Of a DNA stretch of 64,000 nt, positions 3,330 through 11,183 are shown in pieces. Made by a program: the position numbers and the translations under genes. The notes beneath the pieces are model-generated. The model ran no database searches. It had not been told where the DNA came from and saw only the letters and a program-made list of their open reading frames with translations. Numbering within the stretch: position 1 is the first letter of the stretch; each line of letters opens with the position of its first letter. The stretch comes from Lysobacter sp. Root76 (lineage in GTDB: Bacteria > Pseudomonadota > Gammaproteobacteria > Xanthomonadales > Xanthomonadaceae), in assembly GCF_001428685.1 (NCBI RefSeq), contig NZ_LMIK01000008.1, forward strand, positions 48,730 to 112,729, written 5' to 3'.

Positions 3330-4415
3330 ATGCCCATTTGGATCTCACAGCCTGCCGCCCTGCAGGAACATTTCGCCACCCGGCCGGCCCGCATCGGCCT
3401 GGACACCGAATTCATCCGCGAGCGCACCTACTGGCCGCAGCTGGCGCTGGTGCAGATCGCAGTCGGCGACGAGATCCTGCTGGTCGATCCGCTCAAACCG
3501 GGCATGACCCAGGCGCTGGCGCCGATCCTGGCCGACACCGCGATCCTCAAGATCATGCACAGCGCCAGCGAAGACCTGGTCGCGTTCAAGCACGCCTGCC
3601 AGGTCGTGCCCAAGCCCCTGTTCGACACCCAGCTGGCCGCCGCGCTGGCCGGCATCGGCGGCGGACTGGGCTACCAGAAACTGGTCGAACAGCTCACCGG
3701 GGTGACCCTGGCCAAGGGCGAGACCCGCTCGGACTGGCTGCGCCGCCCGCTGTCGCCGGCTCAGCTGGAATACGCCGCCGACGACGTCCGCCACCTGTTC
3801 GCGATGCATGATGCGCTCGACGGCCAGCTCGGCCTGCTCGGCCGCCGCGAATGGCTGGTCGAAGACGCCCAGCGCACCATCCACAACGCCGAACACGAAG
3901 GCCTGGAGCCCTGGCCGCACCTGGGCATGCGCAGCGCCCAGTTCCTCGACCGCAACGCCCAGCGCCGCCTGCTGCGCCTGCTGCGCTGGCGCGACGCCTA
4001 CGCGCGCGACCACGACCGCCCGCGCAGCTGGATCCTGGACAACGAACTCGCGGTCGCGATCGCCCGCTCCAATCCCGCCGACCGCGACCTGCTGCAAGCG
4101 CAGCTCGACGCCCACCCGAAAGCGCCGCGCAAGCTCGGCGATGCGGTCTGGACCGCGCTGAGCACCGCACTGGCCGACGAGGACCAGGCACCCGACGCAT
4201 CGGTCGGCGAGAACCGCGACAAGCAGCGCCTGCGCAAACTGCAGGACGCGGTCGCCGCGCGCAGCGCCGAACTCGGCCTGCCCGACGGCGTGCTTGCTTC
4301 GCGCCGCTGGCTGGAAGCCCTGCTCGACCACGGCGACTGGCCCGACGCCCTGTCCGGCTGGCGCCGCACCGCGCTGGAGCCCGGCCTGACCCCGCTGCTG
4401 GCGGCCCAGGACTAG
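3330..4415 (+). CDS. rnd: Ribonuclease D
   Basis: A 361-residue 3'-5' exoribonuclease that trims tRNA 3' ends. The DEDDy exonuclease domain fills the first 200 residues: LDTEFIRERTYWPQ (Exo I, Asp and Glu), HSASEDLVAFKH (Exo II) and YAADDVRHL (Exo III with Tyr and Asp). An HRDC-like region follows (WRDAYARDHDRPRSWILDN). Length matches the family. The next feature is a tRNA gene, 39 bp downstream on the same strand. It is divergent from the SUMF1-like lipoprotein gene. Confidence 0.95.
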   Translation: MPIWISQPAALQEHFATRPARIGLDTEFIRERTYWPQLALVQIAVGDEILLVDPLKPGMTQALAPILADTAILKIMHSASEDLVAFKHACQVVPKPLFDTQLAAALAGIGGGLGYQKLVEQLTGVTLAKGETRSDWLRRPLSPAQLEYAADDVRHLFAMHDALDGQLGLLGRREWLVEDAQRTIHNAEHEGLEPWPHLGMRSAQFLDRNAQRRLLRLLRWRDAYARDHDRPRSWILDNELAVAIARSNPADRDLLQAQLDAHPKAPRKLGDAVWTALSTALADEDQAPDASVGENRDKQRLRKLQDAVAARSAELGLPDGVLASRRWLEALLDHGDWPDALSGWRRTALEPGLTPLLAAQD

Positions 4416-4454: not shown

Positions 4455-4530
<76 letters not shown>

Positions 4531-4596: not shown

Positions 4597-5991
4597 TTAT
4601 CCGGCGCAATACCGGTCCGCGACGTGCAGCGCTTCGTCGATGATCGACAGCCCCTCGCGCAGTTCGTCCTCGGCGATGTTCAGCGGTGGCGCGACGTGCA
4701 GGCGGTTGCCCATCGGCAGGGGCCACAGGCCGAGGCGTTTGCATTCCTTCGCCAGCGCGGCCATCGGAGCGTTCGCCTTACCGCTGGCATTGAACGGGAC
4801 CAGGGGTTCGCGCGTGCCGCGATCGCGCACCAGTTCCAGCGCCCAGAGCATGCCCAGCCCGCGCACATCGCCCACGCACGGATGCCCTTGCCGCATCGCT
4901 CGCAATGCCGGGCCCAGCACGGTTTCGCCGAGCATGCGGGAACGTTCGATCAAGCCTTCGTCGCGGTAGATGCCGATGCACGCCACCGCCGCTGCGCAGG
5001 CGAGCGGATGGCCGGAGTAGGTCAGGCCGCCGGCATACGGGCGCTGGGTGAAACTCCCGGCGATCGCCTCGCTCATGATCACGCCGCCCAGCGGTACGTA
5101 GCCGGAATTGACGCCCTTGGCGAAGGTGATCAGGTCGGGCGCGACGTTCCAGCGATCGATCGCGAACCACTCGCCGCAACGGCCGAAGCCGACCATCACC
5201 TCGTCGGCGATCATCACGATGCCGTGCGCATCGCACAGCTCGCGCACGCCGAGCAGGTAGCCGTCGGGCGGCACCAGCACTCCGTTTCCGCCAACCACGC
5301 TTTCCAGCAGGATCGCGGCGATGCCGCGCGGGCCTTCCAGGGCGATCGTGTCGGCCAGGTGCTTGAGTGCGCGCTCGCATTCCTCGGCCTCGTCGGCCGA
5401 ATGGAAGGCCGAGCGGTATGCGTACGGGCCCCAGAAACGCACGATGCCCGGCGCGCCAGGCTCGGACGGCCAGCGGCGCGGGTCGCCGCTGGCGGCGATC
5501 GCCCCGGAGGTGGCGCCGTGATAGCTGCGGTAGGCGGTGAGCACCTTGTGCCGCCCGGTATGCAGGCGCGCCATGCGGATCGCGTTCTCCACCGCTTCGG
5601 CGCCGCCGTTGGTGAAGAACACGCGGTTGAGATCGCCAGGTGCGACTTCCGCGATCAATCGAGCCGCTTCGCTGGTCGCCGCATTCGCGTGGTAGGGCGC
5701 GATGGTGCACAGCGTCGCGGCCTGCGCCTGGATGGCGGCGATCAGCCGGGGATGCTGATGCCCCACGTTGACGTTGACCAGCTGGCTGGAAAAATCCAGA
5801 TAACGGCAGCCGCTCTCGTCCTGGAAGTGCGCGCCGGACGCGCCCGTCACGACGACCGGATCGTTCGCGCCCGCGGCCGACCACGAATGCAGCACGTGCG
5901 CGCGGTCGTCGCGCATGGCCGATGAAGACGACGGCGCTTCCTGATGCTGTGCGCTGGTCGCGCCGGCGTCGTGCACGCTTGCCTCGCGCAT
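4597..5991 (-). CDS. Class III PLP-dependent aminotransferase
   Basis: A 464-residue fold-type I aminotransferase of the ornithine/omega-amino acid group. FFTNGGAEAVENAIRMAR (125-142) binds the PLP phosphate, ADEVMVGFGR (262-271) holds the conserved Asp, and FAKGVNSGYVPLGG carries the Schiff-base Lys292. The start at 5991 is supported by AAAGGA seven to eight bases upstream. It is the third gene of a minus-strand operon, only 10 bp after the VOC gene, which itself overlaps the heme-oxygenase-like gene. The amino donor and acceptor cannot be assigned. It differs from housekeeping ArgD in its longer N-terminus and context, and I infer a role in a small accessory pathway with its neighbours. Confidence 0.88.
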   Translation of the reverse strand: MREASVHDAGATSAQHQEAPSSSSAMRDDRAHVLHSWSAAGANDPVVVTGASGAHFQDESGCRYLDFSSQLVNVNVGHQHPRLIAAIQAQAATLCTIAPYHANAATSEAARLIAEVAPGDLNRVFFTNGGAEAVENAIRMARLHTGRHKVLTAYRSYHGATSGAIAASGDPRRWPSEPGAPGIVRFWGPYAYRSAFHSADEAEECERALKHLADTIALEGPRGIAAILLESVVGGNGVLVPPDGYLLGVRELCDAHGIVMIADEVMVGFGRCGEWFAIDRWNVAPDLITFAKGVNSGYVPLGGVIMSEAIAGSFTQRPYAGGLTYSGHPLACAAAVACIGIYRDEGLIERSRMLGETVLGPALRAMRQGHPCVGDVRGLGMLWALELVRDRGTREPLVPFNASGKANAPMAALAKECKRLGLWPLPMGNRLHVAPPLNIAEDELREGLSIIDEALHVADRYCAG

Positions 5992-6001
5992 GGGGCGTCC
6001 T

Positions 6002-6421
6002 TTACGGGATGAAGGTCTGCTCGGGGTCGTCGAAGGACTTGAATTCCAGCGCGTTGCCCGATGGATCGAAGAAGAACATCGTCACGTGCTGGCCTGGCTT
6101 TCCTTTCAGGCGCAGGTGCGGTTCTTCCTCGAACTCGATGCCGGCATCGGTGAGGCGGCGGGCCAGTGTCTCCCATGCCCGACGATCCAGGTTCATGCCG
6201 AAGTGCGGAATCGGCACCGCCTCGCCGTCGAAGCGCCCGACCTGCAGCGGCTTCCCGTCCGGCGCGATATGCGCCACCAGGTGATGGCCGAAGAAATCGA
6301 AGTCCTGGTACGACACATCGCTGCGCCCTTGCGGGCAGCCGATCAGCTCGCCATAGAAATGCCGCGCTTCGTCCAGATCCCGCACCGGGAAGGCAAGATG
6401 GAACTGCGTGATCGCGCTCAT
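6002..6421 (-). CDS. VOC superfamily (glyoxalase/dioxygenase-like) protein
   Basis: 139 residues with two beta-alpha-beta-beta-beta modules typical of vicinal-oxygen-chelate enzymes. FHLAFPVRDLDEARHFYGEL is the first module, PHFGMNLDR opens the second, and FFFDPSGNALEFKSF ends it. The likely metal ligands are His8, the His of PHFGM and the Glu of ALEF. The ATG at 6421 overlaps the stop of the upstream gene in an ATGA, so translation is probably coupled. An N-terminally extended reading to 6706 would run through the coding sequence of the upstream gene and is rejected. The reaction is unknown: lyase, dioxygenase and binding roles are all possible in this superfamily. Confidence 0.85.
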   Translation of the reverse strand: MSAITQFHLAFPVRDLDEARHFYGELIGCPQGRSDVSYQDFDFFGHHLVAHIAPDGKPLQVGRFDGEAVPIPHFGMNLDRRAWETLARRLTDAGIEFEEEPHLRLKGKPGQHVTMFFFDPSGNALEFKSFDDPEQTFIP

Positions 6422-7197
6422 GAAGCCACCCTCCGCTGCGGCACGCACGCGTCGAAGATGTTCTCCCAGAACTGGTTCCAGGCAGTGATGCTGCGTTCGT
6501 AGCCTTGCGCCAGCTCGGGCAATACCGAGGAGTCTTCGCGAATGTAGGCATCGATCGCCGCACGCGTGAGCTCGCCATGGACGATGTCTTCCTCGCCGGT
6601 GTGGATGGTCCAGAACTCCCAGTCGATGCGATCGGCGTTCTCGCGCATGTACGGATGCAGGCGCAGGTGTTCGAACATCACCGAAAGGTAGGTCTGGCAC
6701 AGGCACTCGCCGCCCATGCCGCGCAGTCCCACGCCGAAGGCAGGGCCGCGCTTGCGCAACTCGTCGGTGAGGCCGCCGAGGATCGCGCGGTTCGCCGGCA
6801 GGCCGGTGTCGACCTGCTCGCGCGGCACGCCGATGCTGGCCAGGAAACGGTCGTAAATTTCAGGATGCGCACGGGCGGCGTCGCCCTCGCCCAGTTCCTC
6901 CGACAGGATCTGGCTGAGCAAGCTGCGCAGCCCGCCGAACGGCAGTTTGGCCAGCAGCAGTGCAAGATCGCTGATGTAGTCGATGGTGAAAAAGCGGTAC
7001 TGCGTGCAGAACCGCCGCAGGGCGTCGACCGGCAGGTGGGTGAGCGCTCTCATCTTCTGCTCGGCCAATGCTTCGGTCGCTTGCTTGGCCCGATCGGCGA
7101 AGGCCCAGAAAGTCTCCCGGCCCCATGTACCCGCATGCATCGCGATGCTCGGAAACGAGGGAACCGCGCGCGTATGGAAGCTATTCTCCAATGACAT
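6418..7197 (-). CDS. Heme-oxygenase-like diiron oxidase/TenA-PqqC-like protein
   Basis: About 259 residues from the ATG at 7197; ATG codons at 7275 and 7227 are alternatives and the start is not certain. The sequence is all-helical. It has acidic and His residues placed as in iron-containing heme-oxygenase-like enzymes: SEELGEGDAARAHPEIY (Glu101, His111), GGECLCQTYLSVMFEHL (Glu164) and HTGEEDIVHGE (His199, Glu203 or Asp204, His207). Members of this fold perform oxidative C-C or C-N cleavage, N-oxygenation or cofactor ring chemistry. It is the first gene of the operon with the VOC and aminotransferase genes and is divergent from the QueC-like gene. Function is inferred from fold only. Confidence 0.75.
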   Translation of the reverse strand: MSLENSFHTRAVPSFPSIAMHAGTWGRETFWAFADRAKQATEALAEQKMRALTHLPVDALRRFCTQYRFFTIDYISDLALLLAKLPFGGLRSLLSQILSEELGEGDAARAHPEIYDRFLASIGVPREQVDTGLPANRAILGGLTDELRKRGPAFGVGLRGMGGECLCQTYLSVMFEHLRLHPYMRENADRIDWEFWTIHTGEEDIVHGELTRAAIDAYIREDSSVLPELAQGYERSITAWNQFWENIFDACVPQRRVAS

Positions 7198-7494
7198 GCA
7201 CCCTGCCCGTTGAGGCGGTCGCAGCATCGCCGCGATCCGGCGTGAATGGATAGACGCTGAGTCGCGACCGAGCATACCCGTCGGAAACGATGGCCAGGTT
7301 CACGTCGCTTTGACACGCACGTCGCGATTTAACGCGATGTAAGCGAAATTCCTACATCCTGCGCACGCTTTACAACAAATGCTTCATATCGCACGTACAT
7401 CCGATCCACGAACCACAATTGCGGTTCATCTTTCGTTACACGTGACGTGCGAGCCTCGCTACTGCACCGCTATCGTGCGAGCACGCGACCCACG
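7198..7494. promoter_or_regulatory. Divergent control region with 18-bp palindrome
   Basis: This 297-bp gap separates the diiron/VOC/aminotransferase operon (minus) from the QueC-like gene (plus). It is clearly more AT-rich than its surroundings. GAACCACAATTGCGGTTC at 7410-7427 is an 18-bp palindrome centred on CAATTG, with only one base pair breaking symmetry, so it is a good candidate operator. TTGACA at 7309-7314 resembles a -35 box, but I cannot pair it with a convincing -10. No regulator gene is adjacent. Confidence 0.5.
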
Positions 7495-8325
7495 ATGACC
7501 TCTGCGCACGACATACTCACGCCTTCGCCCGTCAACCTGTTGTGGACCGGCGGCTGGGACTCGACATTCCGGCTGCTGCAGTTATTGCTGCAGCATCGCG
7601 TCGAGGTGGTGCCGTATTACCTGGAAGACCCCACGCGCGCCTCGACGCAGCGCGAAATCCAGACGGTGGAACGCATCACCGCCGCCCTGCGCGAATCGCA
7701 TCCGCACACTCGCGCCTTGCTGCAACCGCTGCGCCGATTCGCGGTGGAGGGGATTCCGGTCGATCCCGATATCGCCGCCGCATTGCGCGAGATCCGCCGT
7801 CGCAGCTACATCGGCAGCCAGTACGCATGGTTGCCCGCGTTCTGCCGGCAGCAGGCCCTGCCCGATCTGGAGCTGTGCGTGCACGTGGACGACAAGGTGC
7901 AGGCGTTGCTGCGTGGATACGCGCAGGAGTTCGCGCACCCGGCCGGCTATCGCAGCATGCGCGTGGATCGCGCCCACACGGGGTCGGCGGAACACACTTT
8001 GTTCGGTTCCTTCAGCTTTCCGTTGTTCCATATCGACAAGGTCGGCATCGACCGCGCGGCGAACGCCGCGGGCTGGGGCGAGCTGATGGAGCTGACATGG
8101 TTCTGCCACACGCCCCTGCGCGGGCGGCCGTGCGGCATCTGCCCGCCGTGCGTGTACACCATCGAGGAAGGCCTGGCGCGGCGCGTGCCGCCGTCACGAC
8201 GCGTGGTCTCGTGGTTCTACCGCCGCCTGTGGCTGCCGCTGCGCACGGCGCTGCGGCAATGGCGCGCGACCGGCCACGGCCGCGGAAACGAACGCCCGCC
8301 GGCGCCGGGCTACGGCGGGACCTGA
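7495..8325 (+). CDS. Stand-alone QueC-like PP-loop ATPase
   Basis: 276 residues from the ATG at 7495; an upstream GTG at 7447 is possible and neither start has a clear ribosome site. The N-terminus has a PP-loop, LLWTGGWDSTFRLLQ (motif at 18-23), a variant of the SGGxDS pyrophosphatase loop of QueC and asparagine-synthetase-like enzymes. The C-terminal part carries four cysteines (204, 213, 216, 219) spaced C-x8-C-x2-C-x2-C, the zinc site spacing of QueC (7-cyano-7-deazaguanine synthase). No queD, queE or folE lies nearby, so a queuosine role is unlikely. QueC relatives are known to adenylate other carboxylates or proteins. It is divergent from the diiron/VOC/aminotransferase operon, which suggests a shared pathway but does not prove it. 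Confidence 0.75.
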   Translation: MTSAHDILTPSPVNLLWTGGWDSTFRLLQLLLQHRVEVVPYYLEDPTRASTQREIQTVERITAALRESHPHTRALLQPLRRFAVEGIPVDPDIAAALREIRRRSYIGSQYAWLPAFCRQQALPDLELCVHVDDKVQALLRGYAQEFAHPAGYRSMRVDRAHTGSAEHTLFGSFSFPLFHIDKVGIDRAANAAGWGELMELTWFCHTPLRGRPCGICPPCVYTIEEGLARRVPPSRRVVSWFYRRLWLPLRTALRQWRATGHGRGNERPPAPGYGGT

Positions 8326-8967: not shown

Positions 8968-9417
8968 ATGACCGCGAAGAAGAAAGCTGCCGCAAGCCAG
9001 ACCGCATCCAAGGCTTTCTCGGCCGAAGAACGCGCCGCGATGAAAGAGCGCGCGAAAGAGCTCAAGGCCCAGGCCAATCGGGCCGAGAGCGAAAAGGACC
9101 TGATCGCCAAGATCGCCGAGATGCCGCCGGCGGACCGCGCGCTGGCCAAGAAGCTGCATGCGATCGTCACCGAGGTCGCACCCGCGCTGGTCCCCAAGAC
9201 CTGGTACGGCATGCCCGCCTACGCCAACGACGACGGCAAGATCCTGTGCTTCTTCCAGGCCGCGTCCAAGTTCAACAGCCGCTACGCGACCTTCGGTTTC
9301 AACGACGTGGCCCAGCTGGACGACGGCGCGATGTGGCCGACCGCGTTCGCGCTGCAGTCGCTGGACGCCGCCGAGGAAAAGAAGGTCCGCGCGCTGGTCA
9401 AGAAGGCGCTGGGCTGA
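8968..9417 (+). CDS. DUF1801 (YdhG-like) domain protein
   Basis: 149 residues with a Lys/Ala-rich N-terminus (about 60 residues, likely helical) and a DUF1801 domain: LVPKTWYGMPAYANDDGKIL and AASKFNSRYATFGFND. AAGGAG seven bases before the ATG supports the start. DUF1801 proteins are small beta-rich cytosolic proteins; some are called iron chaperones (frataxin-like fold), but the role is poorly established. It is followed after 110 bp by the multicopper oxidase gene on the same strand. Confidence 0.82.
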   Translation: MTAKKKAAASQTASKAFSAEERAAMKERAKELKAQANRAESEKDLIAKIAEMPPADRALAKKLHAIVTEVAPALVPKTWYGMPAYANDDGKILCFFQAASKFNSRYATFGFNDVAQLDDGAMWPTAFALQSLDAAEEKKVRALVKKALG

Positions 9418-9527: not shown

Positions 9528-11183
9528 ATGACTGACACGACGCGTCGCCGCCTGTTCGTCGGACTCGCCGCCGCAGCCTCGCTGGCGGCCGCCGCGCCCT
9601 GGTTGCTCAGGCGCAAGCGCGCGCACGATCACGCCGCCGCGCCGGCGACGCCGGACTCGCATGCGGGTCCCGGGCTGCCGAACGCGCGGCCGTTCCAGGC
9701 GCCGCTGCGCCTGCCGGGCCGCGACGGCCTGTTCGCCGAAGTCGCGCTGTCGGCGCCGTTGGCGCTGAGCGCACGCGCCGCAGCTTTCCCGATCTTCGGC
9801 GGCAAGCCGACCCTGGTCTGGCACTACGCCGGCAGCGCCGACGGCCATGCCATCGCCAATCCGCTGCTCCGCGCGGCCAAGGGCGACACGGTCGAAGTCT
9901 CGCTCGACAACGCCCTGCAGGAAGACACGACTATTCACTGGCACGGCCTGAGCGTGGACGAGGCCAACGACGGCAGCGGCCTGCATCCGGTCGCTGCCGG
10001 CGGCCGGGCGCGCTACCGGTTCAGGATCGACAACCGTGCCGGGCTGTACTGGTATCACGCGCATCCGCACGAACGCACCGGCCAGCAGTTGCAGCGCGGG
10101 CTGGCGGGCCTGCTGCGGATCGAGGACCAGGAAGATCGCGCGCTCGGCGAACGCCTGGGCCTGCGCTGGGGCGAACGCGACCTGCCACTGTTCATCGCCG
10201 ACAAGCAGGTCGACGCCGACAACGGCATCGTCTATCGCCAGGGCGCGGACGACTGGATCGGCAACCGCGTCTTGGTGAACTGGACGCCCGAACCCTTCCT
10301 GGAAGTGCTGCCGGCGCTGTACCGCCTGCGCATGGTCAATGCGGCCAACGCGCGCATGCTGCGGATCGCGTTCGAGCACGAAGGCCGGACGCTGCCGTTC
10401 CAACTCATCGGCACCGACGGCGGATTGCTGGCGCAGGCCTGGACGCTGGACGATGTGTTCCTCGCGCCCGCGCAGCGCATCGACGTGCTGGTCGATTTCG
10501 GCGCCTTGCCCGCCGGCGCCCGCGTGCTGCTGCGCAGCCTGGAATACGTCGCGATGGAGAACGAGGACGAGTCCGGTGCGTTCGCGCCCGATCCGATGGG
10601 CGAGCATCCGGGCGCGGCGCCGATGGGCAATGCGCTGGACCTGATGCAGTTCTGCGTCGCCGCCTGCAGCGATACGCAACGACGCCAGGCCAAGCCAGCG
10701 CCCATCAGGGTGCCGGCAATGCTGAGCGCATTGCCGCCACCACCCGACACCAACGGCTGGCCGGTGCGGCCGATCCGCCTGCGCATGGACGACCAGGGCA
10801 CCTGGTTCATCAACGACTGGAACTACCATCAGGTCGGCCACGATCCGGTGTTCACCGTCAAGCGCGGCAGCCGCGAGGTCTGGGAAATCCGCAACAACAT
10901 GACCAGCATGCCGCACCCCATCCACGTGCACGGTTTCCAGTTCCGCGTGGTCTCGCGCAGCATCAGCCCGCCCGACGTGCGCAGCCGCAAGGTCACCAGC
11001 CAGGGCCTGGGACCGCAGGATCTGGGCCTGAGCGACACCGTCGTGGTGTGGCCGGGCGAGATCGTCCGCATCGCGATCGATTTCGCCCAGCCCTACTCCG
11101 GCATCCAGCGCTACATGCTCCATTGCCACAATCTGGAGCACGAGGACATGGGCATGATGGTCACATTCGCCGTCGACGATTGA
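9528..11183 (+). CDS. Tat-exported multicopper oxidase (CueO-like)
   Basis: A 551-residue three-domain cupredoxin oxidase. The N-terminus TRRRLFVGLAAAASLAAAAP looks like a Tat signal, so it is exported folded to the periplasm. All four copper motifs are present: HWHG (137-140), HAHPH (177-181), HPIHVHG near 465 and the C-terminal HCHNLEHEDMGM (532-543), with Cys533 and axial Met543 for the type 1 copper. It could oxidise Cu(I), other metals or phenols; no copper-resistance genes are adjacent. The FKBP lipoprotein gene follows by 55 bp and may share its transcript. Confidence 0.92.
   Translation: MTDTTRRRLFVGLAAAASLAAAAPWLLRRKRAHDHAAAPATPDSHAGPGLPNARPFQAPLRLPGRDGLFAEVALSAPLALSARAAAFPIFGGKPTLVWHYAGSADGHAIANPLLRAAKGDTVEVSLDNALQEDTTIHWHGLSVDEANDGSGLHPVAAGGRARYRFRIDNRAGLYWYHAHPHERTGQQLQRGLAGLLRIEDQEDRALGERLGLRWGERDLPLFIADKQVDADNGIVYRQGADDWIGNRVLVNWTPEPFLEVLPALYRLRMVNAANARMLRIAFEHEGRTLPFQLIGTDGGLLAQAWTLDDVFLAPAQRIDVLVDFGALPAGARVLLRSLEYVAMENEDESGAFAPDPMGEHPGAAPMGNALDLMQFCVAACSDTQRRQAKPAPIRVPAMLSALPPPPDTNGWPVRPIRLRMDDQGTWFINDWNYHQVGHDPVFTVKRGSREVWEIRNNMTSMPHPIHVHGFQFRVVSRSISPPDVRSRKVTSQGLGPQDLGLSDTVVVWPGEIVRIAIDFAQPYSGIQRYMLHCHNLEHEDMGMMVTFAVDD

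Follow-up and report, generated by a model that had tools for sequence, protein, structure and literature searches.

The haem-oxygenase-like diiron proteins (HDOs) are a superfamily in which about a dozen of more than 10,000 members have a validated function, and a review gives three histidines and three carboxylates as their ligand set (PMC13108848). Described relatives of the protein considered here include BesC, CADD/pABA synthase, SznF, HrmI, UndA and FlcD, as well as MboA, the HDO of the mangotoxin (mbo) cluster, whose other genes include those for ATP-grasp ligases, an arginine deiminase and a redox partner (PMC13185094). A second group comprises QueC, QatC and Cap9 (PF06508), together with ATP-dependent nitrile synthetases (PMC13060819); YxQxHxxE, VPxRN and YPDC are the signature motifs of canonical QueC (PMC13329287). 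In a 64,000-nucleotide stretch of contig NZ_LMIK01000008.1 from Lysobacter sp. Root76 (hereafter the window), relatives of both groups meet in a four-gene locus that encodes an HDO, a VOC protein, a class III aminotransferase (AT) and a QueC-like protein (QueCL). These four genes are an inherited unit, probably for a small, uncharacterised pathway that uses iron and O2 to remodel an amino-acid-like compound. The features of the locus are as follows.

4597..5991, minus strand: AT, a predicted class III, pyridoxal phosphate (PLP)-dependent omega-aminotransferase resembling PRK06062 and taurine:2-oxoglutarate aminotransferase (NCBIfam NF004718; 6jix; lysine of FAKGVN; Pfam Aminotran_3 4.8e-86)
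6002..6421, minus strand: VOC, a predicted single-domain VOC metalloenzyme (Pfam Glyoxalase 5.7e-8; H8, H73 and E126 invariant)
6418..7197, minus strand: HDO, a predicted haem-oxygenase-like diiron protein (Pfam Haem_oxygenas_2 1.5e-12; six invariant ligand-type residues; AlphaFold2 (AF2) model; Foldseek)
7198..7494, no strand: divergent intergenic region of 297 bp (sequence)
7271..7314, minus strand: candidate control element for HDO-VOC-AT, GTCAA-N6-GTGAA (7299-7314), then TATGCT (7271-7276)
7495..8325, plus strand: QueCL, a QueC-like PP-loop ATPase with zinc-type cysteines (PHROG 1550 8e-12; alignment A2; AF2 model; weak Foldseek matches)

This layout bears out an earlier note on the same DNA, which had described three tightly coupled minus-strand genes facing QueCL across an AT-richer region. 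HDO and VOC overlap at an ATGA, VOC and AT are spaced by 10 bp, and G+C content is 59.6% in 7000-7499 versus 62.6 to 73.2% in the other 15 blocks of 500 nucleotides between 3000 and 10999, with VOC, HDO and the 297-bp gap below most of the flanks. The family assignments in that note (diiron-type HDO, VOC and class III AT) held in Pfam and NCBIfam, and its view of these proteins as tailoring-type enzymes was supported.

A scan of genome contigs with HDO as the bait, and hence present by construction, returned 30 loci, 23 of which were from Lysobacteraceae. VOC was adjacent to HDO in all 23 by tblastn, with QueCL adjacent in 21 and AT in 17. The flanks of these loci differed and fell into several neighbourhood types, in which two genes recurred, one M13-peptidase-like (five loci) and one indolepyruvate-oxidoreductase-like (eight loci), both names being read by eye. 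Close matches to HDO, VOC and QueCL (at least 65%, 82% and 60% identity, respectively, thresholds chosen post hoc at a clear break in the lists) occurred in an identical set of 17 of 149 Lysobacteraceae genomes, across eight genera. AT was found at E<=1e-120 in 15 genomes, namely 13 of the 17 plus two (G272 and G320) with a fused form of HDO and VOC. No p-value is given for this co-occurrence because related genomes are not independent. The four-gene set is not accidental; it is a recurrent inherited unit. Recurrence, which the earlier note had proposed as the mark of a functional unit, was thus positive within the Lysobacteraceae; the whole set did not recur at eight HDO loci outside the family (39-44% identity; L003 from G159, six cyanobacterial contigs and one gammaproteobacterial metagenome-assembled genome), where tblastn found no VOC, AT or QueCL in the retrieved stretch. 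VOC, AT and QueCL were likewise not listed at plasmid HDO loci of Rhizobium rhizogenes and Nostoc, for which annotation is incomplete. VOC relatives at 34-54% identity occurred in further genomes without a close HDO, and the 12 VOC-only loci examined had no neighbour common to more than two.

The relationship between HDO and VOC is closer still in other members of the genus. G272 and G320 each encode one protein of 439 aa in which HDO is followed by VOC, with AT (69-70%) convergent next door. Among 20 genomes of the window's genus, 11 carried the fused HDO-VOC, two (the window's own and G244) the split form with QueCL, and seven neither. AT was convergent beside the fusion in 11 of 11 fused loci, and across stretches of 15-20 kb no gene clusters other than the fusion and AT were shared by all 11. 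Because fused HDO-VOC and AT are shared by 11 genomes without a QueCL match, these results point to HDO, VOC and AT as the functional core, with QueCL an optional partner in one lineage. Given the fusion in relatives, a joint HDO/VOC step is therefore likely.

HDO residues E101, H111, E164, H199, D204 and H207 (Met1 numbering) were invariant in 22 of 22 HDO sequences, down to 39% identity, with 13 of the 23 Lysobacteraceae HDO loci included in the alignment (A1). These are ligand-type residues in a three-histidine, three-carboxylate set, so that the metal ligands, whose absence the earlier note would have read as the sign of an accidental unit, appear to be in place. The AF2 model (mean predicted local distance difference test score, pLDDT, of 86.9) has the predicted haem-oxygenase-like helical fold, and its Foldseek matches included CADD, BesC, SznF, HrmI, UndA and FlcD, as well as proteins that share the fold but are not diiron enzymes, TenA and PqqC among them. 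Profile searches with HDO reached BesC at 7e-6 and CADD at about 1e-4, and the six residues align opposite histidines and acidic residues of both. HDO is accordingly listed here as a predicted diiron O2-activating enzyme, like the known HDOs in fold and in its histidine/carboxylate pattern. It differs from them in identity (at most 20% among the 50 Foldseek matches listed) and in its partners, a class III AT and a VOC protein to which it is fused in relatives; in the alignment with BesC and CADD, its last helix also has an additional residue separating the first ligand position from the second. The close family is rare: a search of 398 Pseudomonadota genomes at E<=1e-25 found it in just two, each a member of the Lysobacteraceae, and none of the 39 IMG/VR stretches that matched the search pattern encoded an HDO relative.

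More distant HDO loci offered a lead to the substrate. cysE lay near six of 10 distant HDO loci (39-44%), three of which are close Moorena relatives and one of which has cysE in two pieces, about 7 kb from HDO; some distant loci also carried a transporter of the L-lactate permease family or another type. No cysE was found at five places where HDO is more distant again (24-30%), nor near two fused loci or the Lysobacteraceae loci covered by that search, a set that excluded the window itself. As a lead only, the cysE neighbour of the distant clade would suggest a substrate derived from serine or cysteine. On a Rhizobium rhizogenes plasmid (L094:7938-11499), an HDO relative occurs with a methyltransferase, a DMT transporter and cysE, with YcaO/TfuA genes near. 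In Nostoc (L060:8962-14442), another adjoins genes that, by eye, resemble phycobilin reductase and phycoerythrin subunit genes.

AT passed the PRK06062 model (NF004718) at 718 bits, the cut-off being 472, and its nearest solved structure was 6jix, a taurine:2-oxoglutarate aminotransferase (4e-109; runner-up 2.8e-72). The two aligned at 369 bits along 429 residues, with the PLP lysine motif FAKGVN opposite FAKGVT. 6jix is clearly the best solved match, and AT differs from 6jix and PRK06062 in clustering with HDO and VOC, not with dehydrogenases or transporters. 43 plasmid records had strong matches to AT and four of these loci were examined; three (Moraxella, Deinococcus and Thermus; about 50%) adjoin a CoA-acylating methylmalonate-semialdehyde dehydrogenase. 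The taurine aminotransferase kinship and these dehydrogenase neighbours together suggest a beta- or omega-amino acid as the substrate of AT. VOC residues H8, H73 and E126 were invariant in 25 aligned rows, one fused copy included; with its fold family and these 2-His/1-Glu type residues, which would serve as ligands, VOC is a predicted metalloenzyme. Its nearest solved chain, 3rri (1.6e-17), bears only a family name.

QueCL matches QueC only weakly. It scored 19.8 bits against PF06508, below the cut-off of 22, and the genome's sole PF06508 match (257.9 bits) lies on a different contig and is a canonical queC. The PP-loop and C-x8-C-x2-C-x2-C zinc site reported in the earlier note are present and shared with QueC: the loop reads WTGGWDS, containing the TGGWDS variant of SGGxDS, and C204, C213, C216 and C219 were invariant in 20 aligned relatives (A2, from which L049 was omitted owing to a stop codon in range). 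Also in line with that note, no queuosine genes stand beside QueCL, the neighbours at 3330-4415, 8968-9417 and 9528-11183 being other genes in a Pfam scan. QueCL differs from QueC, QatC and Cap9 in that the YxQxHxxE, VPxRN and YPDC motifs are not kept in the alignment of 20, although a low-probability alignment does place one residue, E54, opposite the last Glu of YxQxHxxE. A role in the queuosine/deazaguanine pathway was rejected because QueCL lacks these substrate motifs and a separate queC is present in the genome. The AF2 model of QueCL (mean pLDDT 90.0) had no clear fold match; Foldseek linked it weakly to PP-loop enzymes, among them TrmU, NcsA, Cap9 and ArtA.

The QueCL tree placed all 24 operon copies in a single 25-row clade (support 100/99) along with one lone copy, L024 from G257; the row L041_392m is a second, lone copy of its genome and not an operon row. 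More distant lone paralogues gave up to five matches per genome, and those of L067-L086 (Lysobacteraceae, e.g., G257, G284, G309 and G328) were scattered amid unrelated genes, with no common partner seen. At E<=1e-15, four of the 398 Pseudomonadota genomes had the family, of which two are not Lysobacteraceae; at E<=1e-5 no relatives were found on plasmids. Relatives also adjoin apparent polysaccharide genes, judged by eye. Five phage contigs carried relatives, of which L118 and L120 pass the PF06508 cut-off. The genes at L118:8004-8723 and L119:7992-8732 lie amid what look by eye like tail/lysis-module genes, and the protein at L120:6864-8669 combines a QueC-like C terminus with a RimK-like ATP-grasp region below the Pfam cut-off.

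Upstream of HDO, a GTnAA-N6-GTGAA element occurred as a strict direct repeat in 10 of 24 upstream regions, compared with a mean of 0.03 in 300 shuffles; several of the genomes bearing it are close relatives, and the count partly reflects shared ancestry. The palindrome described in the earlier note does exist, at 7410-7427, and on the plus strand it was scored as a hairpin of terminator type (one found, 0.3 expected). It was not shared in an alignment of 20 intergenic regions and was rejected as a conserved operator or terminator. A sigma-70 scan of the 7198-7494 gap found none. QueCL has an alternative start, a GTG at 7447, upstream of 7495. At the other end of the locus a tRNA-Ala (4455-4530) adjoins AT, and G+C content dips locally over VOC and HDO; the tRNA-Ala neighbourhood is a possible insertion site.

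We read the locus as a small oxidative, O2-dependent pathway acting on a beta- or omega-amino-acid-like compound, with QueCL activating a carboxylate, and put the probability of this reading at roughly 0.55. The diiron HDO would activate O2 on an amino-acid-like or carboxylate substrate, and VOC would act either on that substrate too or on what HDO makes directly from it. AT would work before or after the HDO/VOC step, using 2-oxoglutarate to convert an amino group of the taurine or beta-alanine type, in the omega or beta position, to an aldehyde or back. QueCL, recruited in one lineage, would spend ATP to activate a carboxylate or amide of the product, for amidation, nitrile formation or ligation. 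The genes and their domains, the conservation of ligand-type residues, the inheritance as a set and the fusion are observed; we infer the order of these steps, the substrate class and the chemistry of QueCL. The locus resembles the mangotoxin cluster in placing an HDO in a compact amino-acid-related cluster and differs in that none of the additional mbo genes named above is in the four-gene unit. The earlier interpretation as a functional unit that recurs was upheld; its suggestions of a peptide-derived product and of protein modification driven by QueCL were not.

More speculatively, HDO and VOC may form a two-metal-centre oxygenase (one bifunctional protein in many Lysobacter) that starts a so far undescribed pathway on an amino acid similar to taurine or beta-alanine, and QueCL may represent an unrecognised PP-loop/zinc family, with members also in phage contigs and at what seems to be a polysaccharide locus, whose reaction is the amidation, nitrilation or ligation of carboxylates without 7-deazaguanine; we offer this joint proposal tentatively, as something we would not bet on. 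The pathway is apparently undescribed, as no account of the HDO/VOC/AT/QueCL set was found in the open-access literature, subscription papers lying mostly outside the search.

Two main doubts attach to the oxidative pathway with QueCL: whether QueCL belongs to it, and whether the compound is built or broken down. Several observations weigh against it. No QueCL was found by tblastn in the retrieved stretch of two Luteimonas HDO loci (L053 and L056), and no AT in that of six Lysobacteraceae loci (L041, L048, L049, L051, L052 and L054); at E<=1e-120, AT was missing from four of the 17 genomes. Within the 20 genus genomes, QueCL matched only the two split-form genomes. Neither a transporter nor a regulator nor any assembly-line gene belongs to the conserved unit, and the closest of the four AT plasmid loci (Paenarthrobacter, 61%) has no dehydrogenase neighbour. 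Since lone paralogues are widespread, the link of QueCL to HDO, VOC and AT may be regulatory or incidental.

The leading alternative, possible if somewhat doubtful, is that the pathway consists of HDO, VOC and AT alone, with QueCL a divergent gene that acts independently and has only the promoter region in common with them. It would account for the 11 of 11 fused-form genomes without a QueCL match, for the Luteimonas loci, for the lone copy inside the operon clade (G257 has no HDO match) and for the other QueCL genes that stand alone. Against it, the 17 of 149 genomes with a close QueCL match are precisely those with a close HDO match, and the two genes stay side by side in 21 of 23 loci despite differing flanks. 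It is unlikely that the set instead serves to break down or detoxify an amine or an omega-amino acid such as taurine or beta-alanine. AT does group with omega-aminotransferases, its nearest solved relative is a taurine aminotransferase, and three of its four plasmid relatives sit with a semialdehyde dehydrogenase and transporters, but the conserved unit has neither a dehydrogenase nor an uptake system, an ATP-consuming QueCL would be unusual in catabolism, and characterised HDOs mostly belong to natural-product biosynthesis (PMC13108848). That QueCL modifies a protein, as Cap9 or QatC does in phage defence, with its neighbours supplying a small-molecule donor, is very improbable: QueC-family enzymes do attach deazaguanine to protein N termini (PMC13279940; PMC13329287) and Cap9 is among the weak fold matches, but the operon neighbours are AT, VOC and HDO, no defence partner appeared in the seven genes scanned with Pfam, only QueCL among the four locus proteins has a PADLOC match (a weak QueC model, E 0.025), and the canonical deazaguanine-contact motifs are not kept.

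For these soil bacteria, the Rosetta-stone fusion of HDO with VOC and the dedicated omega-aminotransferase narrow the chemistry and define a compact, testable pathway, and the QueCL family would widen the known roles of the QueC scaffold.

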